Assembly: GCA_019308685.1 (NCBI GenBank) | Contig: JAFDHQ010000005.1 | Span: forward strand, 1 to 33,063 | DNA: 33,063 bases | Reading direction: 5' to 3' | Source: Deltaproteobacteria bacterium | Lineage (GTDB): Bacteria > Desulfobacterota > Desulfobacteria > Desulfobacterales > UBA11574 | Shown here: one piece after another, positions 4,645 to 32,429 of the stretch | Position numbering within the stretch: the stretch's first letter is position 1 | How the letters are laid out: every line of letters starts with the position of its first letter | Made by a program: the position numbers and the translations under genes | The notes under the pieces: model-generated | What the model was told of the DNA's origin: nothing | Databases searched by the model: none | What the model saw: the letters and a program-made list of their open reading frames with translations, nothing else

Positions 4645-5658
4645 TTACAATTCCACGCCATCAATTTCCGCGCCGCAATTGGGGCACCGTCCATTTTCTA
4701 TCAGATTTTCCCGGACATAAAATCCCCATCGGTCAATCAGGATCTTACCGCACTGATAACAGAATGTCTTCTCTCCGCTTTCACCGGGCACATTACCGGT
4801 ATAAACATATTTTAAGCCCGCCTTTATTCCGATTTCACGAGCCACAACCAGAGTCTTAACTGGGGTTGACGGTCGATCCTTCAGCCGGTATGTGGGATGA
4901 AACCGGCTGATATGCCAGGGGGTTTCCGTGCCCAGAGTACCCGCCAGAAAGGCCGCCAGTTCTTCAAGCTCATCCATGGCATCGTTCAATCCCGGAATAA
5001 GCAATGTGGTTACCTCCACAAAAACACCGAGGGATTTCATGAGTTTTAACGTCTCTTTGACAGGCGCCAGCTTGGCCCCGCAATATGTTTTATAAAAATC
5101 ATGGGTGTAAGCTTTTAAGTCGACATTAGCCGCATCCAGATAGGGATGTATCATGTTAAGGGCTTCGGCGGTCATGTATCCATTGGTGACGAAAATATTA
5201 TTAATTCCCTTTTGGTGAGCAAGTTTGGCCGTATCATAGGCCAATTCAAAAAAAACCGTGGGTTCGGTATACGTATAGGCGATGGTTTTGCAATCCCCTC
5301 GTAAAGCGGCATTCACAATATCATCGGGCGAGAAGAAGTCACCGACAATCATTCCGTCACGATCCGACGGCATCTGGGCGATATCAGCGTTCTGGCAAAA
5401 TTGACACTTAAAATTACACCCGACGGTTGCCACGGAATAGGAAAGGCTTCCGGGCATGAGATGAAAAAGCGGCTTTTTTTCAATGGGATCGATATTACGG
5501 GCAATGAGCCTTCCGTAAACCAGGGTTTCCAGTACTCCGCCCCGGTTTTCCCTGACACCACATATTCCGCGACGGCCCTCTTTTATGATGCACCGGTGGT
5601 TGCAAAGACTGCATTTTACCTTTTTTTTCTCCAGAGGTTCATATAAATAGGCTTCCAT
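4645..5658 (-). CDS. amrS: AmmeMemoRadiSam system radical SAM enzyme (AmrS-like)
   Basis: CNFKCQFCQNADIAQMPSDRDG radical SAM CxxxCxxC motif; N-terminal CSLCNHRC and C-terminal cysteine pairs (CYQCGK, CPNCG). Confidence 0.9.
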   Translation of the reverse strand: MEAYLYEPLEKKKVKCSLCNHRCIIKEGRRGICGVRENRGGVLETLVYGRLIARNIDPIEKKPLFHLMPGSLSYSVATVGCNFKCQFCQNADIAQMPSDRDGMIVGDFFSPDDIVNAALRGDCKTIAYTYTEPTVFFELAYDTAKLAHQKGINNIFVTNGYMTAEALNMIHPYLDAANVDLKAYTHDFYKTYCGAKLAPVKETLKLMKSLGVFVEVTTLLIPGLNDAMDELEELAAFLAGTLGTETPWHISRFHPTYRLKDRPSTPVKTLVVAREIGIKAGLKYVYTGNVPGESGEKTFCYQCGKILIDRWGFYVRENLIENGRCPNCGAEIDGVEL

Positions 5659-6598: not shown

Positions 6599-6742
6599 AT
6601 CGAAATTCTGCATAACCTTTTTTCGAAACAGATAATGCGCGTTTTAGTGGTATCCTCCATTCTTCCTTTCTGATGGTGGAAACAGGTTGTCATTAATAAA
6701 TATGTATTTTCAATAAGTCATAAAATTGCCAATTTGTTGGTT

Positions 6743-7972
6743 ATGAAAGAATTTTTTAAAGTTACGGATTTAAAAAAGGTTCTGGAATACGCATCTGATT
6801 TTACTTCGGTTGAGACTGAAGACGTGCCGCTTATTGAGGCAACCGGAAGGGTTCTTGCCCAAGATATTCATGCGGATGTGGACCTTCCCGATTTTATGCG
6901 ATCCACCATGGACGGCTATGCGGTCCGTGCGTCCTCGACCTTTGGCGCATCAGAAGCAAATCCGGCCTATCTTTCCATCATAGGTTCGGTAATTATGGGA
7001 GAATCTCCCCCTTTTTCCATTGAAACCGGCCAAGCCGCTGCGATCTCAACCGGAGGCATGCTGCCGGACGGGGCCGATAGTGTTATCATGATCGAACATA
7101 CAGAAGCGGTGGACGACATAAGCATTGAGGTATACCGGAGTGTTGCTCCGGGACAGAATATACTTGAAAAGGGCGAGGATATCACTAAAAACGCTGTTCT
7201 GGTTTCCGGCGGGAAAAGACTCAGAGCCCAGGAAACCGGACTTCTGGCCGCATTTGGCCAAAACAGGGTCAGGGTTTACAAAAAGCCTGTCATCGGTATT
7301 ATCTCAACCGGAGATGAAATAGTTCCCATTGATAAAACACCGGGTCCCGGCCAAATTCGCGACGTAAACATGTACACGCTCTCCGGTCTTGTGAAAAATG
7401 CCGGGGCTGACCCGGTGTCTTTCGGAATTATTCCGGACGACTTTGATGATCTTTTGAAAAAATGTGTCCTGGCTCTCGAAAAAACAGACATGGTCTTGAT
7501 TTCAGGGGGTAGTTCCGTAGGCACCCGCGATTTTACCATCCAAGTACTCGCCGAACTTCCGGATGCCCAAATCCTAGTACATGGTATATCTATAAGCCCG
7601 GGCAAACCAACCATTCTGGCCAAATCAAGTCATCACGCCATATGGGGCTTTCCCGGACAAGTGGTTTCGGCCATGGTCGTTTTTGAAGTGGTTGTTAAGC
7701 CCTTCATTGAGCAAATCAGCGGTCTTTCCGTTAAACACAAAAAAACCATCAAACTTCATGCGCTCCTGAGCAGAAATATTTCATCTTCCCAGGGCCGAGC
7801 CGACTATATCCGGGTACGTTTGAATGAGAAAAACGGCGTGCTTTGGGCCGAGCCGATTCTTGGAAAATCAGGGCTTATAAACACAATAGTAAAAGCCGAC
7901 GGTCTAATTGAAATCGGGCTAAACACCGAAGGGCTGGATAAGGGTGCCGAAGTCGAGGTGATACCCATTTAA
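6743..7972 (+). CDS. moeA: Molybdopterin molybdenumtransferase MoeA
   Basis: MDGYAVRA, GADSVIMIEHTE, ISTGDEIVPID, GGSSVGTRDFT, SPGKPTILA. ATG6743 is a likely start (ORF track begins at TTG6734). Confidence 0.92.
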   Translation: MKEFFKVTDLKKVLEYASDFTSVETEDVPLIEATGRVLAQDIHADVDLPDFMRSTMDGYAVRASSTFGASEANPAYLSIIGSVIMGESPPFSIETGQAAAISTGGMLPDGADSVIMIEHTEAVDDISIEVYRSVAPGQNILEKGEDITKNAVLVSGGKRLRAQETGLLAAFGQNRVRVYKKPVIGIISTGDEIVPIDKTPGPGQIRDVNMYTLSGLVKNAGADPVSFGIIPDDFDDLLKKCVLALEKTDMVLISGGSSVGTRDFTIQVLAELPDAQILVHGISISPGKPTILAKSSHHAIWGFPGQVVSAMVVFEVVVKPFIEQISGLSVKHKKTIKLHALLSRNISSSQGRADYIRVRLNEKNGVLWAEPILGKSGLINTIVKADGLIEIGLNTEGLDKGAEVEVIPI

Positions 7973-8284: not shown

Positions 8285-10213
8285 ATGAGCAAAAGTCGAC
8301 ATATATATTTAAAGATGAAAACCCTTAAAGAGGCTCGCCAAATAATGTTTGAGCGGTTTTCCCTTTCTCAACCTCTTTTAAAAGAGACGATTTCGGCTCC
8401 TGACGCAGTGGGCCGGGTTCTGGCAGAACCGGTTACCGCCGTAATTTCTTCTCCGAACAATCACCTGGCTGCAATGGACGGAATCGCCGTAACAGCGGCA
8501 ACGACCTTTGGTGCTTCTGAAACACGGCCCAAGGAACTTGTCATGGATACGGACGCTTTTTATGTAAATACCGGCCACATAATGCCTGAAAACACCGACG
8601 CAGTGATCATGATAGAAAATGTTAATGATAGGGGCCAAGGCCGGATTGAAATTGAGGCGCCGGCATTCCCCTGGCAGAACGTTCGAAAGGTCGGTGAAGA
8701 TATCGTGGCGACCGAGCTTCTCTTCCCCCATAACCATGTCATAACCCCCTATTGTGTGGGAGCCCTTCTTTCAGGAGGCGTCTTTAAGGTGCCGGTAAGG
8801 GAAAAACCAAAAGTACTGGTTATTCCCACAGGGTCCGAACTGGTGGACTGGCGTGATACACCTCTCGAGAATCTTAAGCCGGGTCAGGTGCTTGAAACAA
8901 ATTCTTTTGTCCTCGGAAAACTGATCGAATCGTACGGAGGCGCCTTTGTCCGACATGAAATGTTAACCGATGATCCCGGAATACTAAAAGAGACCATTCT
9001 GCGTGCGGTCGACAATAATTTTGATATGGTACTGACCGTGGGCGGATCATCGGCAGGATCAGAGGATTACACCAGAAATGTTATTGATGACCTGGGTGAG
9101 GTGTTGGTCCACGGCGTTACCATCATGCCCGGAAAGCCCCTGATTATCGGTCAAATAAAAGACAAACCCATCTTTGGTATTCCGGGGTACCCGGTTTCCG
9201 CAATCGTAACCTTTGAACAGTTTGTGGGTCCGTTGTTGTCATTGATGCTGGGACAGCCGGAAAAAAGAAGGGACGCCGTTCGCGTTGAACCGACAAAAAA
9301 GATTGCTTCAAAACTCGGTGTGGAAGAATTTATACGGGTTAAGCTGGGAGCCGTGGGCAACAGAATTGTGGCCACTCCCCTGCCCCGTGCGGCCGGGTGT
9401 ATTACCACCTTAACCCAAGCGGACGGAATCATCCGGGTCCCCAATAACGTTGAAGGGTTACAGCCTCACGAGTCCGTCACGGCTGAACTGTTGCGTCCTC
9501 TGTCTTCCATCAAAAATACGGTGGTGGTGGTGGGAAGCCATGACAACACCTTGGACATTCTGGCAGATCAGATTCGCTTCGGGCACAAAGACCTTACCCT
9601 TTCATCAAGCCATGTGGGAAGCATGGGCGGCCTGATGGCCGTTAAAAAAGGGGTTTGCCATTTGGCAGGGTCACATCTTCTGGATACCCAGGACGGTTCT
9701 TACAATATATCATATGTCAAAAAATATCTCCCCGATGTCAGAGTAAAACTGGTGAATCTTGTGCTTCGGGATCAGGGACTGATTGTACCTCCGGGAAATC
9801 CCAAAGGGATCAATGGTATCGAGGACCTTGGCCGTAATGATATCACTTTCATCAATCGACAGGCAGGCTCCGGCACAAGAATTCTTCTCGATTTCCGCTT
9901 AGCCCAGTTGGGCATCGAGCCCTCTTGTGTCAGCGGATATGAAAACGAAGAATTTACCCATATGTCGGTGGCCGTTGCCGTGCTCAGCGGTTCGGTGGAT
10001 GTGGCCCTTGGAATCTTCGCTGCCGCAAAGGCCCTGAAACTTGATTTTATCCCGGTGGTCACGGAACAGTATGACCTTATTATTCCCGAAATATATTATG
10101 AATCTGAAAACATCCGGATCCTGCTCGAAACCATTAATTCTCCCGAGTTTAAAAAGCGGGTTCAAGCATTGGGAGGATATAGCACCGAAAAAACTGGCCA
10201 GATAATTATTTAG
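8285..10213 (+). CDS. MoeA-like molybdopterin biosynthesis protein with C-terminal PBP/LysR-substrate-like domain
   Basis: N-terminal MoeA signatures (MDGIAVTA, TGSELVD, VGGSSAGSEDYT, MPGKPLIIG); C-terminal VVVVGSHDNTLDILADQIR...GSMGGLMAVKKGVCHLAGSHLLD...FINRQAGSGTRILLDF is a PBP_like_2-type domain. Confidence 0.9.
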   Translation: MSKSRHIYLKMKTLKEARQIMFERFSLSQPLLKETISAPDAVGRVLAEPVTAVISSPNNHLAAMDGIAVTAATTFGASETRPKELVMDTDAFYVNTGHIMPENTDAVIMIENVNDRGQGRIEIEAPAFPWQNVRKVGEDIVATELLFPHNHVITPYCVGALLSGGVFKVPVREKPKVLVIPTGSELVDWRDTPLENLKPGQVLETNSFVLGKLIESYGGAFVRHEMLTDDPGILKETILRAVDNNFDMVLTVGGSSAGSEDYTRNVIDDLGEVLVHGVTIMPGKPLIIGQIKDKPIFGIPGYPVSAIVTFEQFVGPLLSLMLGQPEKRRDAVRVEPTKKIASKLGVEEFIRVKLGAVGNRIVATPLPRAAGCITTLTQADGIIRVPNNVEGLQPHESVTAELLRPLSSIKNTVVVVGSHDNTLDILADQIRFGHKDLTLSSSHVGSMGGLMAVKKGVCHLAGSHLLDTQDGSYNISYVKKYLPDVRVKLVNLVLRDQGLIVPPGNPKGINGIEDLGRNDITFINRQAGSGTRILLDFRLAQLGIEPSCVSGYENEEFTHMSVAVAVLSGSVDVALGIFAAAKALKLDFIPVVTEQYDLIIPEIYYESENIRILLETINSPEFKKRVQALGGYSTEKTGQIII

Positions 10214-12534: not shown

Positions 12535-15033
12535 CTACAAATCCGGGTCCGGCAACTTCACCTCGGTAATTATCGCTCCAAAAACCGAAAAAATTGAAAA
12601 GACAAATATTCGCCACATACCGTTTGTCACAATCTCTCCCATCGAAATACCACTACCGTGGCCGAGAAATGCCGACACCCCCGCATAAAACACCCCGACC
12701 GCAACGCCGCACACAGCCGCCCCGACAATCCGTTTGGCCAAAGTTGCCCCACCACATCCCAATGTCACCACCGCGCCACAAAGCATGGGTACAAATACGC
12801 ACAGCCACCAAATCGTCCTCAAATCAGGCAAATTTCCAACATTCCCAAGGTAAACAAAATCCGCAATTCCAAATATTCCGGTTGCCGCAATTGCGCACAA
12901 ACCGATATGCCAGTATCGATTGGGCATGGACGCCCTTAGCAGAACACGCTTTCCAATACGACGGCGTATGGTCAACGGAAGATTGTAGAATAAACAAAAG
13001 ACCCAATGCTCCAGCAATGCGCCACTTTCACCAAACACCGGAACAATGTGTACCGATTCATTGGCCCAGTGCCCGGCCATAAATCGAGCCAACACCGGGT
13101 AACGATAGGCCATCTGGATCGGAAAAGCCAAATATCCGATGTATTTAAAAAACCCTAAAAATACCGCAATATTATAGTCTTTGAAATTTCGCTCCCTGAT
13201 CACCAGATACAGTACGTAAATCCCCCGAACCAGAGACCCCGGAGAAATCGGCACAACCTGAAACAATGCGATAATTCCGAGTCCGATCCCCCATGCCTGT
13301 GCTCGCGGCATCTCAGGATGCATGGCAACATAAGTCATGGCTACCAGCACGGAAACAATCTGGGTTACCGGTAACGTACAGATATGCACGGCCAGGCTTT
13401 TCAGATACTTTTGTATAAACGGCTCATCAACCTGTGACAGAATAATTTCTGCGTCCTCATGACTTAATATATGCTTTTTCCGCCCATCTGATACCATCTC
13501 ATAAAGCCATTGCTTGCGCAGTTCTGAATTAAAATATAACCGAATCGGTCTCACAAACAGATAATTGAATCGCTCTTTGGCATATTCCCAATCCGTTAAT
13601 ATTCGGTGCAGCCCGGCAGGAAGTATTGACAATGCACAATTTCCCATAAAACGCCAACCGGATTTGGCGACGCTTATGGCGCCGGCGCTATCGATCCGGT
13701 TCGCTCGATGCCACCCAATGATTTTTTCAGCCATCTTCCCTCTAAAAGCTCTTTTTAAATAATCCCAACTTGTGACTATTCCCTTATAATGTTTTCGCCA
13801 GTCCCCGTGCCCCCAAAATCGCTGAAATGATATACCATAAATTGGAATGATTCCAATTAAATAAAATAATATAGTTAAAGTTTTACTTTGTCTTAGCTTT
13901 TGTGCCTGCGAATCATCGACCACATTTCGCACTTTCCATCCATTCACCGCGCTGTCAAATAGGGTCGACCACAGCCGCCCGCTGTAAAATAACCGAATGA
14001 AATTGTGAGTAATGTCGGGAACCGAGTCTCTGTAAATACGCTCGGATGCTTTAAGTTCATCCAACATCTCTCGCATGTCGGCAAAATCGTTAGGATGCGC
14101 TTCTATAAATCGTTCAAGTTGTTCGATGCTGCCCCGATCGAACTGTACCAGGCTTCCCCGACCGAGTCCTTTGATAATCAGTTTAAAATCCCCGGGACTC
14201 ATGGGTAAAAACATCAGCAGCGCAAGACCGGCCCGAAAATCAACTGCTACCAGCCCGCCGGAGGGATTATTATCCGTACCCTTTCGTTTCAGACAGTTTG
14301 GCTGACTTTTACACGTGGACCACTCATATTGTCTCGCAAACTCATGCCCTCCCATGTCATGCAGCAGCGCAACAAATTTGTGCATAAATTCATACTTGGC
14401 GCGATATTCCGGCGAGCCCAGCCGGTCACTCTCAACCGGCCTGCCCCTACGCCATTTTTTCAAGAAATCCAGATGATCATCGACCTCCAGCCGCCAGGTT
14501 CTCCCGTCCACCCACTCGCTAAACTCACCGCAACTCCCCAGTGTATGGTCCACAAACGTTGCATAAATATCCACAACCGTTTTTTCATCACCAAATCGAA
14601 TTTTAGCGCCTCGCCGGATAAATTTTTGCCATAACGCCCCGGCTCTTGCAGCACGCGGATTCACCTGAAGCTGAAAGGGTCCTTGAAAACCCATCCAATA
14701 AATGGCATTGCGAAACAGCCGGGAAAAGGTAGACGGCGGAATAAGAATCTTCATCGCATAAATGCCGCCGACCTCAAGTCCTTTTATGGCCCCATCCGGC
14801 TCATGGATCTCCGTGACCTTCACCCGATAGACCTGTCCGGCAAAACCACCACCTACAAACGTCTCAACTACCGCACGAACTCTTGCCGTATGGGTACCGG
14901 CGACCTCGGTGACGTCATAAACAAGCTCACGGCCCGCATCATAACGCTCAAGTCGAATGGGCCGGTATAATCCTGCGTCATGGAATCTTGCTTCAAGTGT
15001 CTTGCATGTCTCAATAGAGTATTCTCGCGTCAT
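12535..15033 (-). CDS. Hypothetical 832-aa protein: N-terminal protein-kinase-like/ABC1-like domain plus multi-TM C-terminal membrane domain
   Basis: GGGFAGQVYR (GxGxxGxV, aa 61-69), IYAMKIL (K95), HDMGGHEFARQ, KSQPNCL, LVAVDFRAG (D265); roughly 10 hydrophobic segments from about aa 390 to the end. Confidence 0.8.
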   Translation of the reverse strand: MTREYSIETCKTLEARFHDAGLYRPIRLERYDAGRELVYDVTEVAGTHTARVRAVVETFVGGGFAGQVYRVKVTEIHEPDGAIKGLEVGGIYAMKILIPPSTFSRLFRNAIYWMGFQGPFQLQVNPRAARAGALWQKFIRRGAKIRFGDEKTVVDIYATFVDHTLGSCGEFSEWVDGRTWRLEVDDHLDFLKKWRRGRPVESDRLGSPEYRAKYEFMHKFVALLHDMGGHEFARQYEWSTCKSQPNCLKRKGTDNNPSGGLVAVDFRAGLALLMFLPMSPGDFKLIIKGLGRGSLVQFDRGSIEQLERFIEAHPNDFADMREMLDELKASERIYRDSVPDITHNFIRLFYSGRLWSTLFDSAVNGWKVRNVVDDSQAQKLRQSKTLTILFYLIGIIPIYGISFQRFWGHGDWRKHYKGIVTSWDYLKRAFRGKMAEKIIGWHRANRIDSAGAISVAKSGWRFMGNCALSILPAGLHRILTDWEYAKERFNYLFVRPIRLYFNSELRKQWLYEMVSDGRKKHILSHEDAEIILSQVDEPFIQKYLKSLAVHICTLPVTQIVSVLVAMTYVAMHPEMPRAQAWGIGLGIIALFQVVPISPGSLVRGIYVLYLVIRERNFKDYNIAVFLGFFKYIGYLAFPIQMAYRYPVLARFMAGHWANESVHIVPVFGESGALLEHWVFCLFYNLPLTIRRRIGKRVLLRASMPNRYWHIGLCAIAATGIFGIADFVYLGNVGNLPDLRTIWWLCVFVPMLCGAVVTLGCGGATLAKRIVGAAVCGVAVGVFYAGVSAFLGHGSGISMGEIVTNGMWRIFVFSIFSVFGAIITEVKLPDPDL

Positions 15034-15342
15034 TTCTGCATCTCAATTTTAACGAAAGGTCGGGAAATTTTTTTAATTCAAACAGGTTACAATTTCGTCG
15101 CTGATTATTTATTCCGATTTATTTGAGGGGTTAAAAGAAAAACTCCCCCACCCCTCAATTAAATGACGGATTGAGCGGATAAGAATTGTCTTGTTAAATG
15201 AAAGTCAAGTGAGTATAGATATAGGACGCTTGCGTGTCAAGCGAGTAAAAAACAATCCGTCCACTGATTATAAAATATAAAATATATTGCCGTTTTAGAT
15301 AACCATTGATGCAGGTTTTAGGTTGTCAGAAAGGAGACGATT

Positions 15343-20152: not shown

Positions 20153-20372
20153 TTATAATGTGTTAGGCGTAGATAGGACCATTCAAATTAGATTTTATAT
20201 TGACTTTGAAGATAAACAATTATATTTTTTTATAATTTAGTTCTTTTAAACAATCCGGTTTCAAACGCGCGGTAATATTTTTAAACAGCTAACGTGTTGC
20301 ACTTTTTGTAATAAGTGATTGATTCAAAAATTTTTTACACCTTTTACCTTCCAAAAAAATGGAGGCAAGATT

Positions 20373-21137
20373 ATGCGTTGTATAACAAATAATCAAACCA
20401 AATTCAAAGTCGTTGCTATCTTCGCGCTCCTGGCGTTTGCATCAACGCTTTTTGCTTCAGGATTATCCGTGGGCAGAATAATCCCTAAGGGCAAGGTTAC
20501 CTTATTTCAGGGGAACCAGAAAGTTGGAGAGTTCAGTTCCGAAGCACCGTTTCCCGAAGGTGCTCTCTTATCCGTCCAAGGCGAGTGCGGCGTCAAGATG
20601 AGCGACCTTTATCTGGTGGCAATAGACAAAAGCCTGTTTTCCCTTAAAACATATTATGAGTCCCGTAAGTTGTTCGTCAAAAATGGAACGGTTTATTTTG
20701 CCCTTTCCGCCACACCGCATATTCTGGTATTCCAAACTCCGGATGGCGTGGTAACCACCCATCAAATTTTGCTAAATGTATCTACGAAATCCGGTTTGCT
20801 AAAAGGCTATGTATCGGTTTCGGAGGGCATTACCCGGGTTGGAGTGCTTGAGGGTGGATCAATCTTATTATCGGTGGGCGACGGGGAAACCAAGAGGATC
20901 GACGCCGGGCAGGAACTTAGATTGGCTCAGGCAGGTCTGTTTGAAGAGAAAGAAGGGGAAAAAGAGGAACCAAAAGCTGAAAAAGAGAAAATAGCGGATA
21001 AAGATAAAGGTTGGTCAACCACCACAAAAGTTCTTATCGGGCTCGGAGTCGTGGGTGGCGGTGTTGCTGCTTTTGCCGGCGGTGGCGGAGGCGGCGGTGG
21101 GGGCGGTGCTCCTGTGATAAGTCAGTCTGCACCTTGA
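20373..21137 (+). CDS. Exported FecR-like protein with C-terminal TM and poly-Gly tract
   Basis: Signal peptide; FecR-like beta-repeat pattern (GLLKGYVSVSEGITRVGVLEGGSILLSVGDGETKRIDAGQELRL); C-terminal KVLIGLGVVGGGVAAFAGGGGGGGGGG. ATG20373 has a GGAGG RBS. Confidence 0.65.
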   Translation: MRCITNNQTKFKVVAIFALLAFASTLFASGLSVGRIIPKGKVTLFQGNQKVGEFSSEAPFPEGALLSVQGECGVKMSDLYLVAIDKSLFSLKTYYESRKLFVKNGTVYFALSATPHILVFQTPDGVVTTHQILLNVSTKSGLLKGYVSVSEGITRVGVLEGGSILLSVGDGETKRIDAGQELRLAQAGLFEEKEGEKEEPKAEKEKIADKDKGWSTTTKVLIGLGVVGGGVAAFAGGGGGGGGGGAPVISQSAP

Positions 21138-21244: not shown

Positions 21245-21415
21245 GTGGAAATTCCAAATAACAAATAAATAACAATTACCGAAATTCAAAATCCCAAACA
21301 AAAAAACAATCGCTTTGAACCGGTTTGGAATTTGGAGTTTGAGATTTATTTGGAATTTGATGCTTGGAATTTGTGATTTAATTGATCTTTGGCGCTTGGA
21401 ATTTATGATTTCAAA
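21245..21415. repeat. AT-rich repeat region with TTGGAATTT motifs
   Basis: TTGGAATTT at 21325, 21350, 21364 and 21396; inverted AAATTCCAA at 21249. Confidence 0.6.
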
Positions 21416-21463
21416 AAATCCGTAAACGGTTACATTTTATCAACGGTCTTTAGGAATAATTCA

Positions 21464-22489
21464 TTGCAAACAAAAATAACGAACATTTGTTTTTTTTTGA
21501 TTACAGCAATCACAGTGTCACTCTTGGCGCCTTTTTTATCGGGCTGCAGCAAAAAGGACCTAAACCGTGACATGGTTAAGCGATATTCCGCCGCCGATAA
21601 AAATGATGACATCACCCGCCTCAACCAACAACTGTTTTCCGCCGCCCAGATGAACGTGGATCCCAGTGACTATCTATTAGGCGCCGGCGACCTGCTTCAA
21701 ATTAGCGTGTTTGAAGCCGAGAATCTGAATACTACGGTTCGCGTCAGCTCACGGGGGCATGTCACGCTGCCGCTTCTGGGCCAAATCCGGGTTAAAGGGT
21801 TGACCGCACGCGAAACCGAGATAAAAATCGAAAATCTTTTTCGGTCAAAATATATTAAAGATCCCCATGTCAGTGTCTTTGTCCAAGAGCATTTCAGCCA
21901 GCGAGTGACATTGGTGGGGCAGTTCAAAAATCCCGGAACCTATGACTACGTTTCCAAACAACGTCTGCTTGACGTTATGGCGCTGGCCGGCGGTCTTTCC
22001 GATAAGGCCGGAAGAACCGTCCAGGTCCGTCGTCACGGCAATATTCCCGGCAAACCCAACGTGTTCGTGGTTGACATGGACCGGCTCATCAAGGAAGGCC
22101 GGACCGAACTGAATATTGAAATTAACGGCGGGGATGTTATATTTGTTCCCGAGGCCGGCAATTTCTTTGTTGACGGTGCGGTTCGCCGCCCCGGGTCTTA
22201 CCCGATTCGAAATAAAATGGTTCTTGGGGAAGCTTTGGTGGCCGCCGGTGGAATTGCCCCTTACGCCATCAAAGACTCCCTGGTATTGATCCGGTATTTT
22301 AAGGACACAGGCCGGAAAGCCATTGAACTCGAGTATAATCCGGAAAATCAAGAAATGGAAATACAAGACCGGGATATCATCGTGGTTAAATCCAGCACCT
22401 GGGGCAAACTGGTTCACGGAACAGGAATAAATATCGGAATACCCGGATTAGGGGTGGGGTACCATGATCCGGAAAGGGGATACTGGTAG
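21464..22489 (+). CDS. Wza-like polysaccharide export outer-membrane lipoprotein
   Basis: Lipobox LAPFLSGC; YLLGAGDLLQISVFEAENLNTTVRVSSRGHVTLPLLGQIRVKGLTARETE (Poly_export) plus SLBB-like repeats. No ATG start; TTG21464 is a plausible start (ORF opens at TTG21389). Confidence 0.88.
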   Translation: MQTKITNICFFLITAITVSLLAPFLSGCSKKDLNRDMVKRYSAADKNDDITRLNQQLFSAAQMNVDPSDYLLGAGDLLQISVFEAENLNTTVRVSSRGHVTLPLLGQIRVKGLTARETEIKIENLFRSKYIKDPHVSVFVQEHFSQRVTLVGQFKNPGTYDYVSKQRLLDVMALAGGLSDKAGRTVQVRRHGNIPGKPNVFVVDMDRLIKEGRTELNIEINGGDVIFVPEAGNFFVDGAVRRPGSYPIRNKMVLGEALVAAGGIAPYAIKDSLVLIRYFKDTGRKAIELEYNPENQEMEIQDRDIIVVKSSTWGKLVHGTGINIGIPGLGVGYHDPERGYW

Positions 22490-22500
22490 TATTTCAAGGA

Positions 22501-24711
22501 TTAATAATCCAACCGCCTGACCTTAAAAGAATCTCCGTTCGCTAAAAGCTCCATGTCTATTGGGCCGTTTCTCTCCCGCCATGTTGCGCTTCCATCCAAT
22601 CTGGCCTTGACATAAAAAATTCCCTCGATCCTGATGACACCGGTCCCTTCCTGAATGGCATATCTTTTGAGGTCAATCCGGTAATCCATGGCATCGATTC
22701 TTGCAAAAGTGCGTCGATATTGGCCCAACCGGGAAGTGAACGATTTGCCCTTTTCCATGGCATCCGGTGTAAAAAAGGCGGCAAATTTATTAAGCTGTTC
22801 TTTTGCATATGTTTGGCAATACTCCTTTAAAAAAGCGTTCAGACGGGACTGCAAATCGGTACGGACAAATCTATCCCCGGCCACGCCTTCAGGTTTTATT
22901 CCCTTCCGGAGTGCCACAACCTTTTTTTCTTCAGTTTTTTTTACCGGCACCACCACCTTTTTTTCCTCGAACTTTTTTCTCGGTACCACCACCTTTTTCT
23001 CTTCGGGCTTATTTGCCGGAACCGTCGCCTCTTTTATCTCGATCTTCTTTACCGGTACCACCGCCTTTTTTTCTTCAGGCTTCTTTGCCGGTATCACCAC
23101 CTTTTTCTCTTGAGACTTCTTCGCCGGTACCGCAACTCTGGCGGTTGCACTCTCACGGATTGCCGCAGTCTTAATGGGCTGTTTATCCTTTTCTGAAACA
23201 GCCGCCACCCTTGGTGTTGGACCGCTGTCTGAAAATCCGGTCATTGTCCGGGATGCCGGTTTCTCGGATGGAGCAGGTTCAACCCGGTCTTTGTCCAGTG
23301 TTTCTTTCTGAACAGTAACCGGCTTTGCTTTTGGCGGTATGCTTTTAGTTTCCTCAGGCGTAATCTCAGGAATTTTGGATTCCTTGGGAACCATCTTGGT
23401 GAAGGCATCATACACTTCCGGCTCCCTATCACCGCCTGGAATTTCTTGTGTGTCAGCTTGACCGGCAATCGCTTCAGACGGCACAGAAGCAGGAGTCTTT
23501 TCTTTGCTTATGTCAACTTCCCTGAACAATTTGGGTTCAGGGTCCTTTATTATATAATAACGAGAATCCCCCACTTTCCCGATTTCCACCTTGGAAGGAA
23601 CAGGGTACGTTTTTTCCTTCGGCACGTTTGGATTGGTTGTTTGCAAGTTATTTTTCTCTTCCCATTTTTCGGGATAAGAGGTGTTGTCTTGGTTTAAGAT
23701 TAGGTTTACAAGGGAGCCTGTCTTTATATCATTATAAAAAACATATCCGGTAACACTCCCGATCACTGCAAGAAGGCCAATACCTATGAATACAGACTTA
23801 AGTCGTATATCTTTTTTCTTAGGTCTTTCTTGCCTCTGTATAACGGGGATTTCTGGTTTTGATGCACGCTCATCATTAAAGCGGTCCGTATCCCGCATTC
23901 TATTCAAATCCGATATCTTTAGCTCTTCTTTACACTCTCTGATAATATCCGCGTTTATAATGATAATCTCCCTGACAAAACCACTCAACAGGGCATGATC
24001 ACATATAATATTTATCATGCGGGGATAGCCCTTGGAAAAAGAAAATATTTCTTGAATAGCGCCGGGGCTGAAAATAGGCGCTCTGGCACCGGCGGTTTTA
24101 AGCCGATGCTGGGTATAAGTCTTTGTCTCACTTAAAGTCAAAGGCTCAATGTGATATCTGATGGTAATTCGTTGTCTTAACGCTCTGTTTTTATATTCTT
24201 TTAAAATATCGATAAATTCATTCTGTCCTACAAAAAAAATATTCAGAAGTCTGACATGCTCATCTTCAAGATTGGATAAAAGCCGGATCTCTTCAAGCAG
24301 TTCACTGGAAATCCGCTGGGCTTCGTCAATGATCAGCAATGCTTTTTTATTCCTGGCACGGGCTTCTTTTAAAAATTGCTTGAAATAAATAAGAAACTCG
24401 CCTTTGCCGTCAAAGGTTCTCCCCATGTTAAATGCAACCGAAACAATATTAAAAAAATCCAATACCTGCAAACTTGGATCGTAAATGGTTGCAACCATTG
24501 TATCATCCCCGAGGCTTTGAATAAGCGCGTTGATGAGCGTAGTCTTGCCCGTTCCCACGTCACCGGTAAGGGCGAGAATTCCCTTGTTCTCAACAATGGC
24601 ATATTTCAACGTTGCAAGAGCCTCTTTGTGCTTTTCGCCGAGCCAGAGAAAATTTGGATCGGTACTCATCTGAAACGGCTTGGACTCCAAACTGTAATGG
24701 TTAAGATACAT
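22501..24711 (-). CDS. ExeA/XrtA-associated-type AAA ATPase with TM, 36-bp-repeat linker and C-terminal NTF2-like domain
   Basis: MYLNHYSLESKPFQMSTDPNFLWLGEKHKEAL...LTGDVGTGKTTLINAL (Walker A), ALLIIDEAQRIS (Walker B); TM about SVFIGIGLLAVIGSVTGYVFY; C-terminal FLKEYCQTYAKEQLNKFAAFFTPDA. Confidence 0.88.
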   Translation of the reverse strand: MYLNHYSLESKPFQMSTDPNFLWLGEKHKEALATLKYAIVENKGILALTGDVGTGKTTLINALIQSLGDDTMVATIYDPSLQVLDFFNIVSVAFNMGRTFDGKGEFLIYFKQFLKEARARNKKALLIIDEAQRISSELLEEIRLLSNLEDEHVRLLNIFFVGQNEFIDILKEYKNRALRQRITIRYHIEPLTLSETKTYTQHRLKTAGARAPIFSPGAIQEIFSFSKGYPRMINIICDHALLSGFVREIIIINADIIRECKEELKISDLNRMRDTDRFNDERASKPEIPVIQRQERPKKKDIRLKSVFIGIGLLAVIGSVTGYVFYNDIKTGSLVNLILNQDNTSYPEKWEEKNNLQTTNPNVPKEKTYPVPSKVEIGKVGDSRYYIIKDPEPKLFREVDISKEKTPASVPSEAIAGQADTQEIPGGDREPEVYDAFTKMVPKESKIPEITPEETKSIPPKAKPVTVQKETLDKDRVEPAPSEKPASRTMTGFSDSGPTPRVAAVSEKDKQPIKTAAIRESATARVAVPAKKSQEKKVVIPAKKPEEKKAVVPVKKIEIKEATVPANKPEEKKVVVPRKKFEEKKVVVPVKKTEEKKVVALRKGIKPEGVAGDRFVRTDLQSRLNAFLKEYCQTYAKEQLNKFAAFFTPDAMEKGKSFTSRLGQYRRTFARIDAMDYRIDLKRYAIQEGTGVIRIEGIFYVKARLDGSATWRERNGPIDMELLANGDSFKVRRLDY
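22915..23130. repeat. Six tandem 36-bp units in the ATPase linker
   Basis: Encodes VPAKKSQEKKVV/IPAKKPEEKKAV/VPVKKIEIKEAT/VPANKPEEKKVV/VPRKKFEEKKVV/VPVKKTEEKKVV. Confidence 0.85.
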
Positions 24712-24726
24712 AATATTGCTTTTTAT

Positions 24727-27042
24727 TTATTCTGGCAGTTCCCTGCTTTTCTTTTTATTAATCTTGGTTTTGCCATAGCTGTAATAACTATAGTATTTAT
24801 AGTAGGACTGATATCCAAATCGCTTGCTGAGATTAACCTTGTTGATAATACATCCTAAAATCTTTCCCTGGGAGTTGAGTACGCTCTTTTTAAAATGAAG
24901 TAAGGCGTCTCGGGTGGTTTCACCCATGCTGCTTACCAGCACGACGCCGCCCATATGCCGCGAAATAACCAGGGAATCGGCAAAACCCAGATAGGGAGGT
25001 CCGTCTACAATCACGCGATCAAAACGCATAGTCAGGGTTTGTATCAGCATGGCAAAACGCTCCGAGGCCAGCAACTCAACCGGGTTTGGCGGAATCGGTC
25101 CCGCCGGTATAAAACATACATTGGATATACCGTTTTGGCAGACTAAGCCTTTGCTGCTGACCCCTGCCAGGAATTTCGAAAGACCGGGGCTAAAGGCATT
25201 ATCAGAACACTGGAAAAACTTGTGAAGTTTGGGTTTGCGCATGTCCGCATCTACCAGAATCACCCGTTCCCCGGCTCCGGCAAAAGCCAGGGCAAGGTTG
25301 GCCGCCATAGTTGTTTTGCCTTCCGATGGCCTGGTGCTTGTCAACACAAAACTTCCGGCCTGGGAAGCGGTTCCAGACAGCTGAATCGACATTTTGGTGC
25401 TCCGCATAGCTTCGGACAGGGGTGCCCGGGGATCTTTTACAAAAGTGTGTTCAACCGGAAACTCGTCGGTTTTGGACAGGGGCGCCACCCCCAGAATAGG
25501 AATATGAAACCGGTCGGAAATCTCGTCGGGATCGGTGATGGTGTCGGTAAAATATTCCAAGAAAAAGGCGAGCCCTAAGCCGCCCATCACACCGACCACA
25601 AGGGCCAGAAGCAGGTTTAACTTAACTCTGGGTTTAAACGGTTTTATCGGCAGCATGGCCTTGTCGACAATATGTATATTGCTCGACGACACCCCTACCA
25701 TGGACTCAATCTCTTTGGTACGCTCCAGCAGGCTCTGGTAGATCCCTTTATTGGTCTCCACCTCCCGGGCCATAATCTTGTATTGGGTGGCCCGCTCATT
25801 CAGGTCAATGGCCATTTTTTTCTGATGCTCTAATCGCTCTTGCATGGTTTCCACTTTTTGCAGACCGGCCTTGTATTGATTTGCAATTGCCAAAAATACT
25901 TTTTGTTCCTCGATATTGATTCGGTCGGCAATACTGTCCATCTTGGTTTTTAGAGCCTTGACCGCCGGATAACCATCGTGGAAGGTAACGGTTAAGTCCT
26001 CATATTCGGATCGCAGTCGGGCATATTCGGCTTTTAAGCCTGAAATTACCTGGTTTTCCATCACCTGTGGCAAACTGGAGGGTCCGTCCAACATCGCCTG
26101 TTTGTAAACAGATTCCTTACCGATTAAGTCGGTTTCAGCCATGGCCAGGGCTGAATTCAGTTCCTCGAGCTGGCGATATACGCTGTTGAGTTTGGCATCC
26201 AAAGAAACAATACCCGCCTGTTTGCCAAACCGGTTTAAATCCTCTTCCGCTTTTTCCAGACTGATCTTGGCCCGGTCGATCTGCTTCATTAGAAACTCGC
26301 GGGCCAGTTGAGAGGCTTCGAGTTTTTTCTCCATATTCCAGTGGACAAATTCTTCTACAAAAGCATTTGCTATGCTTTGTGATAATTGTCGGTCCGGAGA
26401 CATGAAAGAAATGCCGATAAGCATGGAGTTTCTTTTGGGGGAAACTTCAAGATTATTTTCAACAAATTTAATCAAAGCTTCCTGTTTCAGAGCTTCTTCG
26501 GAAATGAAAGACGAATTCTTTTCCTTGTCCGCACGACTCGATATTAAAGCGCTTAAATTGTTTTTAACGAATGCCCTTATCCTTGAGATAATACCAAGTT
26601 TTCCGTTTTCATACAGCGTATCCATAATAACCGGGTGTTTGACCAGTTCCAGCCTTTCAATAACCCGGCAGGTAAGGGCCTTGTTTTGAAGCAAGTCCAC
26701 CTGGGTCTGATAAAACTCCTGGGCACGCATTTCTGTGGCAACAACCTCTTCGAACTTCGTAACCTTCTGGTTCTGCGGCATTACCTCAATGAAGGTGGAT
26801 GCCTTATACATTTTCGGAGAGGCCAGGGTTAAAATAAGGGTGGTGATAAAGGTCAGCGCCAGGAAACTGATAATGATCCATTTGCGACGGAAAATAACAT
26901 CCAGGTAGTCGCGCAGGTGGACCGCTTCGGTATCCCACTCGGGAATAGCATGCCGGAATTCCGTGGCGGGAAGATTCTCGTTGCCTGCTCTGCCGGTATT
27001 ACTTCCTGAAATTTTACTTAATTTGATGATTTCATCAGACAT
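24727..27042 (-). CDS. Wzc-like polysaccharide co-polymerase / BY tyrosine kinase
   Basis: N-terminal Wzz-like domain, coiled coils, STRPSEGKTTMAANLALAFAGAGERVILVDADMRKP Walker A/A', C-terminal Tyr cluster YQSYYKYYSYYSYGK. Confidence 0.93.
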   Translation of the reverse strand: MSDEIIKLSKISGSNTGRAGNENLPATEFRHAIPEWDTEAVHLRDYLDVIFRRKWIIISFLALTFITTLILTLASPKMYKASTFIEVMPQNQKVTKFEEVVATEMRAQEFYQTQVDLLQNKALTCRVIERLELVKHPVIMDTLYENGKLGIISRIRAFVKNNLSALISSRADKEKNSSFISEEALKQEALIKFVENNLEVSPKRNSMLIGISFMSPDRQLSQSIANAFVEEFVHWNMEKKLEASQLAREFLMKQIDRAKISLEKAEEDLNRFGKQAGIVSLDAKLNSVYRQLEELNSALAMAETDLIGKESVYKQAMLDGPSSLPQVMENQVISGLKAEYARLRSEYEDLTVTFHDGYPAVKALKTKMDSIADRINIEEQKVFLAIANQYKAGLQKVETMQERLEHQKKMAIDLNERATQYKIMAREVETNKGIYQSLLERTKEIESMVGVSSSNIHIVDKAMLPIKPFKPRVKLNLLLALVVGVMGGLGLAFFLEYFTDTITDPDEISDRFHIPILGVAPLSKTDEFPVEHTFVKDPRAPLSEAMRSTKMSIQLSGTASQAGSFVLTSTRPSEGKTTMAANLALAFAGAGERVILVDADMRKPKLHKFFQCSDNAFSPGLSKFLAGVSSKGLVCQNGISNVCFIPAGPIPPNPVELLASERFAMLIQTLTMRFDRVIVDGPPYLGFADSLVISRHMGGVVLVSSMGETTRDALLHFKKSVLNSQGKILGCIINKVNLSKRFGYQSYYKYYSYYSYGKTKINKKKSRELPE

Positions 27043-27099
27043 GTTACACCTAAGTTATAATTACTAAAATCAAAAGGGCTTGTCTATGGTTATTCAGGG

Positions 27100-28308
27100 T
27101 TATAGCTTTTCCAGCTCAAAATCATCCAGCCATAAAATACCTTCAATCTTGTTATCAAACCGATGGCTGGGCTGGCGGCGCAGGCGGACCACCACGGCAT
27201 GGCAGTCTTCGGGAACCGTAAATTCCACATTCTGCTCCTGCCAGTCGTGAGTGCCGAGCATCATGGCGCCCTTGATATAAAAACCTTTGCAATCGTACCC
27301 GTAAATATCCACGAACGGTCCCTGGTCTGTTGTAATATTTCTACTGCGCCAACGATAGGTCAGCCGGTAAGGAGTCAGCGAGTCGACCGGAACGATCTGG
27401 TACAGATGGCCAAATGAGATATTTTCCTTTCCTTCAAACCTAATCTTCAGGCTATGGGCTCCGGAAAAAGCCCCGGACATGGACCGCCGTATCGCCCACT
27501 TCCCCTTTTGATCTGCAGTATACCGCCAGTCAAATCCGGAGCCCGTGATTTGTTCCTCAAACCCGGGATTGGCCATACCTTTAATGCCGGTGCTGGATTT
27601 CCAGATCTCAGCCGCCAGGGAAACGCGTTTTCTGCTAACCAGAAAGTGTATATATTTCGATCGGATATCTTTATCCTGAATGCCGGCCGAAATAATTTTG
27701 CTCCAGGCAATCTGAGCATCATTCATCCGGCCCCAGCGCATCAACCATTCAAGAAAAGGAATTAAATTGTCTGTGTCCAGTACATTAACCGCACGCATTG
27801 CGTCTCCGGCCAGGTGAGTGTCCAGCAGTTGAAACGCATCGGGTATTTTTTTGCGGTGATGGATCAAAAAATTGATGTTACTCAAAACGATTTTTTCCAT
27901 GCTCAGATCATAGGCCAAAAGGATCTGATCCCATTTCCAGCGATACACCTTATCCGTCAAACGGTCTGAAAACTGTAATATATTTCGAGCCTTGTCCGGT
28001 TTTCCCAGAACAATTTCAGCCTGGGCCAGCTTTAACCAGGCATCCATGAAAAAAACGTCCTGTAATACGGTCCGGTGAAAAAATCGGGCGGCACTATCAG
28101 AATCGTTTTCAAACCAGGCGTTGAGGCCGAAATTATAAAGGGCTCGGGGAAAGTGTCTGAACTGTTCTGCATCTTTTGTCCCAAAGCTGTAATTTTCATG
28201 ATATATGGTCCGATACTGCCAGTTATGGACCATAAGCCACACCGACAACCCAACCAGAACCAGCGTAACCAGGCTCTTAACGATTATGGTTTTGGATCTG
28301 TATGTCAT
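27100..28308 (-). CDS. Membrane-anchored TPR-like protein with C-terminal carbohydrate-binding-like domain, exopolysaccharide cluster
   Basis: N-terminal TM; helical repeat region (ALYNFGLNAWFENDSDSAARFFHRTV...WLKLAQAEIVLGKPDKARNIL); C-terminal NPGFEEQITGSGFDWRYT...ILWLDDFELEKL typical of CBM-like jelly-roll domains. Confidence 0.7.
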   Translation of the reverse strand: MTYRSKTIIVKSLVTLVLVGLSVWLMVHNWQYRTIYHENYSFGTKDAEQFRHFPRALYNFGLNAWFENDSDSAARFFHRTVLQDVFFMDAWLKLAQAEIVLGKPDKARNILQFSDRLTDKVYRWKWDQILLAYDLSMEKIVLSNINFLIHHRKKIPDAFQLLDTHLAGDAMRAVNVLDTDNLIPFLEWLMRWGRMNDAQIAWSKIISAGIQDKDIRSKYIHFLVSRKRVSLAAEIWKSSTGIKGMANPGFEEQITGSGFDWRYTADQKGKWAIRRSMSGAFSGAHSLKIRFEGKENISFGHLYQIVPVDSLTPYRLTYRWRSRNITTDQGPFVDIYGYDCKGFYIKGAMMLGTHDWQEQNVEFTVPEDCHAVVVRLRRQPSHRFDNKIEGILWLDDFELEKL

Positions 28309-28324
28309 GGTAATTAGAAGGTAA

Positions 28325-28354
28325 GTCCTCCAAACTAACGGCGGATAAAAAGGT
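28325..28354. repeat. 30-bp inverted repeat, left arm
   Basis: AGTCCTCCAAACTAACGGCGGATAAAAAGG; reverse complement at 28544-28573 with one mismatch (24 bp contiguous perfect). Confidence 0.9.
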
Positions 28355-28543
28355 CAGAAGATTAGAAGGTTAGTAACAGAACTTTGCCGCATCCATTTCC
28401 ATTGAATTTAACATTGCAATAATCTGCTCATAATCATCATCGAGATTATCAAACTCCTTCTTACCCTCTACCCCTCTCAACGCCCCACCTTCCCACCTTC
28501 TGATTTTCTAACCTTCCCACCTTCCTACCTTTTCACCCTCTTC

Positions 28544-28573
28544 CCTTTTTATCCGCCGTTAGTTTGGCGGACT
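28544..28573. repeat. 30-bp inverted repeat, right arm
   Basis: CCTTTTTATCCGCCGTTAGTTTGGCGGACT; overlaps the 3' end of the O-antigen ligase gene. Confidence 0.9.
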
Positions 28574-29934
28574 CCCTCAACTCCCTGCCATAAACATACA
28601 TCCACAATCCCGATCAATATGACAAAGTAGACGCAGTTGGCCGGCATATGGAGGTTAAAGTCAAAGAAGCTGTGAAAGGCTATGGAAACCAGGCCGCTTA
28701 AGGCGCCGATGGTAAGAAAAAATCGAAACGGATCCGCTTGCAAGCGCATGCGTCTGACCTTGCGAAAACTTCTCACCAGAAAAATATAAAATCCGCTCAC
28801 AAGGGCCAAAAAGCCAATCCACCCGGCTTCAACCAGTAATTGCAGATAGTCATTGTGCGCATAATAGAGCGTTTTTTCAGAAATGGTCGAGACATTATAA
28901 ACCGGAAACACCTGCTTGAACGTTGCAAGACCGATTCCAAAGGGGTGGTCCTTGACGATCACCAGACTGTCGCGCCAGAAATTGAGTCGTGAAGCCTCCT
29001 TGGAAATCTTTAAAAACCGTTCCAAAATCGGATCCACACCGATTCTAAAGCTGAAGAAAGCGACCATGCCTATAATTATCGATGTAATTACCCAGAAACT
29101 TCGGGGTATTCCGTTGCTTCCGGAATGTACCAATATAACAAAGGTTAAAAAGCCCAGACCCCACCCGGTAATTCCGGCCCTGGACTTGGAAAACAGCAAT
29201 GCCAGTACCATAACCGCTAACCCGATGGTAAGAAAAAACTGGAAATTAGGTCGATCCGTGGACATCAATGCTTTAAGACTCAGTTTCTCCTTCCAGTTGC
29301 CCAGTGCCAGGGTGTATCCCAAACTCAGAGGCAATATCATTTCTATAAAACCGGCAAAATGGTTCCGGTTTATATACGTGCCCCGGGCATCCCCCAAATA
29401 GGCCTCAATATAATCAATCCAGAGAACGCCCAGGGAAGGAACCAACGCCTGGATCAGACCATATATGGCTTCAGCCGCTGCCAATACCAGCAGGATATAA
29501 ATCAATATTTTTAAATGCCTTGAAGATGTAAAAGTTATTCGGAAAATAAAAAAGAGCAATAAAAGACCCAGTAAAAACGTCCACCAGGCCAATGACCTCA
29601 GTGACGCATAGCTGATGGATTGCCACCCAACAGACCCATGGATTATTGCCATGGATTGTGTCAGCACTTTGTGTCTAAAGGGACTTAAAAAAGACAGAAT
29701 AGTGGAAGGAAGGGGAAGGCACTGCAGCAAACACACCAAATAGAATGCCCCCATAGCAAAAATATAAATCTTATCCGGAAGCCATGCCTTGTTTATTCTA
29801 TTTTGCCATAACAGAATTAAAAACGCGGCAAAAATACCTGCCGTGTAAAAAGACCAGATCCACGCTTGTACCGCAGCAAAAAAAACAGGGATGGTTGCAA
29901 TGATAAAAAAGATTATGCTTCGACTAAATGTCAT
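28549..29934 (-). CDS. O-antigen ligase/polymerase (Wzy_C/WaaL-like)
   Basis: Multi-TM 461 aa; GTYINRNHFAGFIEMILPL...LLFSKSRAGI...YAHNDYLQLLVEAGWIG. Confidence 0.9.
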   Translation of the reverse strand: MTFSRSIIFFIIATIPVFFAAVQAWIWSFYTAGIFAAFLILLWQNRINKAWLPDKIYIFAMGAFYLVCLLQCLPLPSTILSFLSPFRHKVLTQSMAIIHGSVGWQSISYASLRSLAWWTFLLGLLLLFFIFRITFTSSRHLKILIYILLVLAAAEAIYGLIQALVPSLGVLWIDYIEAYLGDARGTYINRNHFAGFIEMILPLSLGYTLALGNWKEKLSLKALMSTDRPNFQFFLTIGLAVMVLALLFSKSRAGITGWGLGFLTFVILVHSGSNGIPRSFWVITSIIIGMVAFFSFRIGVDPILERFLKISKEASRLNFWRDSLVIVKDHPFGIGLATFKQVFPVYNVSTISEKTLYYAHNDYLQLLVEAGWIGFLALVSGFYIFLVRSFRKVRRMRLQADPFRFFLTIGALSGLVSIAFHSFFDFNLHMPANCVYFVILIGIVDVCLWQGVEGVRQTNGG

Positions 29935-30294
29935 TGGAAATGGGCCTTGACATGTACATGAAAGCCGGGAAGGTTTTTATCCAAAATATTCCTCCAAACT
30001 GCCGGCAGATCTTCGATTTTGGAGTAATCCGCGGATCTCGGTCTGAAAGAATCTGCGCCCGGCCTGCAGCTCATTTTGATGGTACCGAGATAGGCAAGAA
30101 TACAATAAGATTTTATTTATTTTAAAAAACATTTGAAATCATAGAATTAATTTTCTATAATTGATTTTGTTTGAAATACATGTATGTTATCCTATAAATA
30201 ATTCAGATGCATTGGTAATTGTAGATTCCATATACTACATCAACCATATTTATGTTTTAGTTTAGCACATAGCACAATTATCGGGAAAAAAGTT

Positions 30295-30585
30295 ATGGAA
30301 GAATTAGCTTTCGATACAACCAAAGTTATCGAGATATGCCGTAAGAATGATGCATCAATGATAGGTGTTTTTGGATCAATGGCAAGAGGGGAAGCTACCG
30401 ACCAAAGCGACATTGACCTCCTATTAAAATTCTCTAAACGAAAAAGTCTTCTTACTCTGGTAAAATTGGAAAGAGAATTATCTACCTCTATTGGTAGAAA
30501 GGTTGAATTGCTGACTGAAGCATCAATTAGCCCCTATTTGCGAGGCCGAATAAAAAAAGAACTAAGGATTATCTATGAATCATGA
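30295..30585 (+). CDS. mntA: MntA-type nucleotidyltransferase antitoxin
   Basis: GVFGSMARGEATDQSDIDLLLKF fits GSX10DXD; overlaps the downstream HepT gene by 11 bp. Confidence 0.92.
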   Translation: MEELAFDTTKVIEICRKNDASMIGVFGSMARGEATDQSDIDLLLKFSKRKSLLTLVKLERELSTSIGRKVELLTEASISPYLRGRIKKELRIIYES

Positions 30586-30913
30586 TGAGTCAGTATATAT
30601 TCAGCACATATTTGATGCAATCATGAGGATTGAAGAATATCTCCAAGGTATTGATGAGCAATCATTTCTAAAAAATCATTTGATTCAGGATGGTGTCATC
30701 CGGCAAATTGAAATCATTGGTGAAGCGACCAAGAGACTCTCTTCTGAATTGCGAAGCAAGTATTTTCATATCCCCTGGGAAGATATAGCAGGTATGCGTG
30801 ATAAGCTTATTCATAATTATTTTGGAGTAGATATTGAGACAGTATGGCTCACAGCAAATGACGATATACCAATTTTGAAATCAGAGATAGAGAGAATTCT
30901 TAATGAAATATAG
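30575..30913 (+). CDS. hepT: HepT-like HEPN ribonuclease toxin (DUF86)
   Basis: RDKLIHNYFGVDIETVW fits RX4HXY; DUF86 N-terminus IFDAIMRIEEYLQG. Confidence 0.93.
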   Translation: MNHDESVYIQHIFDAIMRIEEYLQGIDEQSFLKNHLIQDGVIRQIEIIGEATKRLSSELRSKYFHIPWEDIAGMRDKLIHNYFGVDIETVWLTANDDIPILKSEIERILNEI

Positions 30914-31052
30914 GGATTCAGCTGCACCAATTATCTTGTACGTCCTCTTGCCGCCCATCTTTTACTTTTTTTAATATGCGAAAATCTGCGTAATCTGTTT
31001 ACCCTGTGAAATTCGCGATAGCGACAATGCAATGTATTTCACTGGGGCAGAT

Positions 31053-32429
31053 CTATATGCCTTTAAAAGCAAAAATCAACGTTTCTATCAAAATTGCAAC
31101 GTCAAGAAAAAATGATACATTCTTTTTATAATACAAGTCATAATCCATGTTTTCATGGATGCTGAGTTGCCATAAACCGGTAATTCCGGGGACCACCTTT
31201 AATCTTTCTTTGTGAATTTCTTTATACTGTTCCACTATAAACGGCATTTCCGGTCTTGGCCCGACAAAAGACATTTCTCCTTTAAGAACATTGATGACCT
31301 GCGGTATCTCATCCAGACTTGTTTTCCTCAAGAACCTCCCGACCCTTGTTATGCGGGAATCATTCTGATCTGTCGGGTTTACTGTGTAGGGATTCGTGCC
31401 ATTATACATGGTTCTGAATTTAAATAATTTAAAAATTATGCCACCCTTCCCTACTCGATCATGTATGAAAATAGCCGGTCCTTTTGAATCTAATTTTATT
31501 GCCAGCGCAATAATCAAAAACACAGGCCATAACAGAATTAGTGCTATCACTGCCAGAATTATGTCCAAATACCTTTTGAAACTTAAGTAGAACGGCTCAA
31601 AATCTTCTTCTTCTTTTACAACAGGTATTTCTCCAACCTTATCAATTCTCACTTTATGCATGAAAACTTTATACAAATTGGGGACAAAGGATGCTTTAAC
31701 GTTTTTCGCTTTGAGGTAATCCAAGATTTCAATTAACTTGTCATTGTTTATATTTGAAATCGCAACGTAGATTTCGTCAAAATCATACACTTTTTTTAGA
31801 CGCTCGATATCTTCCCGATTTCCGAGGACCCTGATACAATCGGTTGAATTGAATCCACTTTGATAACATACATAATTGCGTTTATTGGGGTCATCATCAA
31901 TAAAACCGATTGGGTTTATTCTTAATTTAGGGGAATTGGCTATTTCACGAAATAGCGCCCGGCCCAGCTCACCGGCACCGTAAATCAGCACTTTTTTTTG
32001 AAATCCTTTTAGAAATTTTGAAAACGGAGAAATGTGGTAAAAAACCATTTTTTCTGCAACAACAAATGTTAAGGAAAAAATATATGAAAACAAAAGAACA
32101 TACCTTGAGATATTAATTTGTCCAAAGACTAAAATCACACCTAATAAGAGAAAGCTTAAAGAGATCCCCTTAACCACATTTTTTATTTCCTCCATATTGA
32201 GCAGGCTTGATTCATTTTTATAAACTTTAAAAATCTGCATGATGATTACCGTAATTGAAGCAAATATAAGGCTTATGGGAACAATTTGAACGTTTTGATA
32301 ATAGACGTGTTTGCCAATATCCATTATCCAGTAAAGCTTATAGGAAAACATAATTGCAAACACCAATATCGCAAAATCAACAAGCGGATAGACAAGAAAA
32401 ATAAGCCTATAAACAGTTCTCTTCATCAT
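31053..32429 (-). CDS. Exopolysaccharide biosynthesis polyprenyl glycosylphosphotransferase (WbaP/WcaJ-like sugar transferase)
   Basis: N-terminal TM helices, CoA-binding-like GAGELGRALFREI, C-terminal KRYLDIILAVIALILLWPVFLIIALAIKLDSKGPAIFIHDRVGKGGIIFKLFKFRTM. Confidence 0.93.
   Translation of the reverse strand: MMKRTVYRLIFLVYPLVDFAILVFAIMFSYKLYWIMDIGKHVYYQNVQIVPISLIFASITVIIMQIFKVYKNESSLLNMEEIKNVVKGISLSFLLLGVILVFGQINISRYVLLFSYIFSLTFVVAEKMVFYHISPFSKFLKGFQKKVLIYGAGELGRALFREIANSPKLRINPIGFIDDDPNKRNYVCYQSGFNSTDCIRVLGNREDIERLKKVYDFDEIYVAISNINNDKLIEILDYLKAKNVKASFVPNLYKVFMHKVRIDKVGEIPVVKEEEDFEPFYLSFKRYLDIILAVIALILLWPVFLIIALAIKLDSKGPAIFIHDRVGKGGIIFKLFKFRTMYNGTNPYTVNPTDQNDSRITRVGRFLRKTSLDEIPQVINVLKGEMSFVGPRPEMPFIVEQYKEIHKERLKVVPGITGLWQLSIHENMDYDLYYKKNVSFFLDVAILIETLIFAFKGI

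Follow-up and report, generated by a model that had tools for sequence, protein, structure and literature searches.

A family of membrane proteins with a protein-kinase-like domain lacking the catalytic aspartate in Desulfobacterota

The window analysed here, the whole stretch of 33,063 nucleotides, contains a gene for an 832-aa protein that a sequence-only reading described as a divergent kinase-like domain fused to a polytopic membrane domain and assigned to no recognised family. Is this protein real and constrained, does its N-terminal part adopt a kinase fold, and what could such a fusion do? The observation is confirmed, and the protein represents a new family, in which a helical linker connects a kinase-like domain, without the canonical catalytic base, with a membrane domain that has about 7-9 spans.

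The gene, its relatives and its surroundings

12535..15033, minus strand: whole gene, 832 aa, monocistronic (open reading frame with ATG start; purifying selection)
15212..15240, minus strand: sigma-70-type promoter TTGACA-17-TATACT (11/12 matches; shared by five relatives from its own family)
15186-15256, minus strand: conserved upstream block that holds the promoter, with a GCTTG-N5-CAAGC palindrome overlapping the -35 element in part of the relatives

The coordinates of the open reading frame given in the sequence-only reading, which named no strand, are exact. The gene is single copy and intact within its own genome. Pairwise dN/dS against three relatives is 0.13-0.15, indicative of strong purifying selection, and the protein has diverged about as much as MoeA and RtcB, which are encoded nearby; thus, the protein is strongly constrained. 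No match was detected in Pfam, NCBIfam, PHROGs, PADLOC or PDB sequences, in agreement with the original claim that the family is unrecognised, and such a kinase-like/membrane fusion protein was not found described in the literature. A defence system or phage protein was rejected, with PADLOC, PHROGs and viral contigs all lacking a match, as was a plasmid-borne gene, for which there was no plasmid match.

Homologues were sought in 96 relatives, in 390 genomes sampled from the class, and then at the phylum level. Full-length homologues, with 61-91% identity, were detected in 21 of the 96 relatives and in 34 of the 390 class genomes (~9%), every one of the latter within the same order; the phylum-level search added four genomes, from two families outside the class, at 61-65% identity. 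The carriers are marine sulfate reducers that have not been cultured, among them the genus to which Eth-SRB2 belongs, and the contigs bearing the gene include those named Eth-SRB2 and S5133MH16. The spread is patchy: the gene is absent from near-complete genomes within its own genus and family. Almost no homologues fall below 60% identity, the exceptions being a marginal short match and a partial N-terminus, 44% identical over 87 aa, which retains GSGFAGQLY. In the gene tree, the copies of families f8 and f106 form clades, and those of family f1 form one clade with a single intruder (genome G088). Therefore, inheritance is largely vertical, with losses and possibly a few transfers.

Two irregularities were observed among the homologues. 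The copy in genome G674 (L072:2285-4768, minus strand) is intact except for one in-frame TAG at residue 432. Pyrrolysine at this position was rejected because PylS above the cut-off is absent from that genome, so the TAG is probably an error or the mark of a young pseudogene. In the single-contig metagenome-assembled genomes G076 and G288, the gene lies in two distant halves, each terminating at a run of 100 N (L051:9096-9195; L024:1878-1977; L058:9220-9319; L059:9235-9334). Natural splitting was rejected, as the breaks coincide with these scaffold gaps, and this artefact is a warning about 'complete' single-contig genomes of this kind.

As five relatives of the family share this promoter, the gene is very probably transcribed on its own, and the palindrome could be an operator. 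Within the same family, the gene is flanked by RtcB, archease and MoeA on one side and by phosphoglucomutase and an MFS protein on the other. The flanking genes differ between families, no conserved neighbour was found, and an operon partner was rejected accordingly. The missing partner gene and the conserved promoter are consistent with a self-contained protein and, the gene being monocistronic without conserved neighbours, we infer its function.

Elsewhere in the window, two tandem MoeA genes (8285-10213 and 6734-7972), one of them fused to a periplasmic-binding-protein-like domain (PF12727), are followed by archease and RtcB in a block that is kept in other families of the order. A radical SAM enzyme of the AmmeMemoRadiSam system (4645-5658, minus strand) adjoins a methyltransferase. 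The exopolysaccharide locus at 21389-32429 encodes EpsE-like export, an XrtA-associated ATPase-like protein, a chain-length tyrosine kinase, a Wzy_C ligase and a polyprenyl glycosylphosphotransferase; beside it, a 272-aa open reading frame (20319-21137) has no Pfam or NCBIfam match and a homologue of 55% identity in contig L056.

The protein-kinase-like domain

14020..14928, minus strand: protein-kinase-like domain, aa 36-338 (AlphaFold2 model of aa 1-372; Foldseek matches all kinases)
14827..14853, minus strand: glycine-rich loop GGGFAGQVY, aa 61-69 (invariant in 28/28; profile-aligned to the Pkinase glycine loop)
14749..14751, minus strand: K95, VAIK-type lysine on strand beta3 (invariant; aligned to the VAIK lysine)
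14290..14361, minus strand: catalytic-loop region HDMGGHEFARQYEWSTCKSQPNCL, aa 225-248 (N246 kept in all sequences; C, W or A at 241, the HRD-Asp position)
14233..14241, minus strand: DFR, the DFG equivalent, aa 265-267 (invariant)

The kinase-type fold suspected for the N-terminal part was recovered by structure prediction. The AlphaFold2 model of aa 1-372, obtained with 28 sequences, has a pTM of 0.78, and pLDDT exceeds 90 across much of the N-lobe. With the secondary structure elements named by our own assignment, the model comprises beta1 (49-63), the glycine loop, beta2 (66-77), beta3 with K95 (91-96), helix C (126-147), beta4 (156-162), beta5 (167-173), helix D (188-195) and helix E (208-227), in the order typical of a kinase. 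The 50 best Foldseek matches in the PDB are all protein kinases (probability 0.96-1.00), including BubR1, TTK, GSK3B, GAK and RIOK3, with marginal E-values (best 7.8e-4). The TM-score is only ~0.3 and the rmsd 8-17 Å, so the C-lobe is poorly matched. The bilobal protein-kinase-like fold, with a five-stranded N-lobe, helix C and a helical C-lobe, is thus present, the N-lobe and helices D-E being clear and the C-lobe stretch 269-298 being of low confidence.

Comparison of the protein's profile with 20 Pkinase domains from related genomes placed GGGFAGQVYRV against GkGxxGxVYkg and YAMKIL against VAIKxx, in register, at E 0.004. None of 60 column shuffles was as good and the reversed profile scored low; known kinase families match one another at E 1e-6 to 1e-8. 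Unlike alignments between known kinase families, this one stops short of the catalytic loop and DFG. Because it covers the N-lobe only, the superfamily is assigned from the fold and the motifs of the N-lobe, without help from the catalytic loop.

All the motifs quoted in the sequence-only reading were found at the residues it gave (GGGFAGQVY at 61-69, YAMKIL with K95, HDMGGHEFARQ at 225-235, KSQPNCL at 242-248 and LVAVDFRAG at 261-269), and they exceed chance, as judged by the full-length homologues in many genomes, the low dN/dS and the invariant pocket. Conservation was counted in an alignment of 28 sequences. The residues that define the superfamily, namely the glycine loop, the beta3 lysine and the metal-binding Asn and Asp, are all conserved: G61, G62, G63, G66, V68, K95, N246, D265 and F266 are invariant (28/28), including the three (K95, N246 and D265) that had been singled out for scrutiny, and DFR replaces DFG in every sequence. 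The HRD aspartate, which had not been obvious, is indeed missing: position 241, whose register is inferred by counting back from N246, is occupied by C in 18 sequences, W in nine, A in one and Asp in none. In the alignment, no Glu of helix C is conserved, and Q136 is invariant. Two hallmarks of an active protein kinase, a match to Pfam PF00069 and the catalytic aspartate, are accordingly absent, and the pocket appears to be competent for nucleotide and metal and yet devoid of the canonical base.

The linker and the membrane part

13414..14019, minus strand: variable charged helical linker, aa 339-540, with one hydrophobic stretch at 385-403 (conservation and hydropathy)
12919..13413, minus strand: conserved membrane core, aa 541-705, with PISPGS, FKDYN and RYPxLARFM motifs (~60% of columns invariant)
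12538..12918, minus strand: variable C-terminal four-helix membrane bundle, aa 706-832 (13% of columns invariant)

The protein is polytopic, as had been proposed, but the earlier count of about ten transmembrane segments is an over-count or at best uncertain. Averaged hydropathy yields spans at 385-403, 551-569, 583-601, 622-640, 710-728, 741-759, 772-790 and 809-827, with further uncertain ones near 603-613 and 646-690, or ~7-9 altogether. The membrane domain had been placed from about aa 390 onward; a hydrophobic stretch does occur there, but 404-550 is mostly charged helical linker. The core at 541-705 matches the kinase pocket in its degree of conservation. Arg and Lys abound in the loops near 602-621 and 641-709, which suggests that these loops face the cytoplasm. 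A fold search was uninformative with the full-length model, whose quality is low (pLDDT 64.8, pTM 0.47).

The proposed likeness to LPG synthases or flippases did not survive: the PF03706 model gave no match, and the profile alignment of the membrane core was no better than that of shuffled columns (32 of 40 shuffles as good). This reading of the membrane domain was rejected; the PxxPGSL-type loop within a multi-span domain (PISPGSLVRG, beginning at aa 595) resembles LPG_synthase_TM by eye only.

Possible functions and comparison with known systems

The explanation that we favour, with a probability of about one half, is a new integral membrane family in which a protein-kinase-like head controls or energises its own membrane core. 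The N-terminal domain, presumably cytoplasmic, keeps the glycine loop, K95, N246 and D265 and would bind ATP/Mg. Having lost the HRD aspartate and without a conserved helix C glutamate, it would act as a pseudokinase or a UbiB-like ATPase rather than as an ordinary protein kinase. Through the helical linker, it may be coupled, within one polypeptide, to the membrane domain of ~7-9 spans, the core of which might handle a lipid, an isoprenoid, another small hydrophobic ligand, or a signal.

A tentative alternative is that the protein is an atypical but active phosphotransferase, either a SelO-like AMPylase or a kinase of proteins, lipids or isoprenoids, with the substrate presented by its own membrane domain. 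The invariant K95, glycine loop and Mg-binding N246 and D265 fit this possibility, and the loop at 231-250, the most conserved stretch of the protein (90% invariant), is conserved beyond the need of a dead domain; the nearby invariant E231, E237 or K242 could take the place of the missing catalytic residue. Against it stand the C, W or A at position 241 in 28/28 sequences and the helix C devoid of a conserved glutamate. Rather more speculative, and in our view doubtful, is an ATP-dependent membrane machine specific to Desulfobacterota, in which a base-less kinase-like ATPase would drive the membrane domain of the same chain by UbiB-like chemistry, with an integral membrane module of its own.

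It is improbable that the protein combines a membrane domain with a divergent ATPase of the UbiB/ABC1 type and is engaged in handling membrane lipids (quinone or isoprenoid). Both are membrane-linked protein-kinase-like proteins, and GQVYRV...YAMKILIP aligns in register with ABC1 GQVhra...VAVKVQRP (0/60 shuffles as good), but Pkinase reaches an equal profile score. The ABC1 model (PF03109) matches proteins in 25 of 26 relatives, and five in the same genome, but not the product of the 12535-15033 gene. Beyond the N-lobe there is no alignment, and the motifs differ: the loop is glycine-rich (GGGFAGQ) where that of ABC1 is Ala-rich, no KxGQ motif precedes the N-lobe, and C/W/A-KSQPN stands in place of the D-x-H-P-G-N loop (DPHPGN) with its Asp. 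Membership in ABC1 was therefore rejected, and of the ABC1/UbiB-type spacing noted originally only the short resemblance around the glycine loop and lysine remains. Least probable is a signalling or scaffolding pseudokinase that binds no nucleotide, keeps its pocket for structure only and uses the membrane part as an anchor or sensor: the loss of the catalytic Asp and the membrane-associated families known among bacterial pseudokinases (reviewed in PMC12599244) would suit it, but the ATP/Mg-binding residues are all invariant and the membrane core is conserved like the pocket, beyond the need of an anchor.

Judged by the respective models, the protein is not a member of ABC1/UbiB, APH, Pkinase or LPG_synthase_TM. 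APH (PF01636) was rejected as its Pfam model gave no match and the profile comparison did not rise above shuffles. With Pkinase (PF00069), the new family has in common the order of fold elements, the GxGxxGxV loop, the A-x-K lysine and the Asn and Asp metal ligands; it differs in the missing Pfam match and HRD Asp, an insert before the loop, and DFR for DFG. SelO (PF02696) is an AMPylating enzyme with a protein-kinase-like domain classed as a pseudokinase; unlike the 832-aa protein, it is recognised by Pfam. Of the 42 bacterial Ser/Thr kinase and pseudokinase families, including ActPs, GLW and CP1, in the accessible part of PMC12599244, the pseudokinase motif sets differ from that of our protein, and a multi-span membrane fusion of this type is absent from that part of the review. 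The protein thus adds to the protein-kinase-like superfamily a deeply conserved family that had not been described before: it retains the nucleotide-binding residues, has lost the catalytic Asp and carries a fused multi-span core that is conserved to the same degree. The fusion would allow a direct test of the effect of a base-less, ATP-binding kinase fold on its membrane partner, a matter that also concerns UbiB/COQ8 and bacterial pseudokinases.
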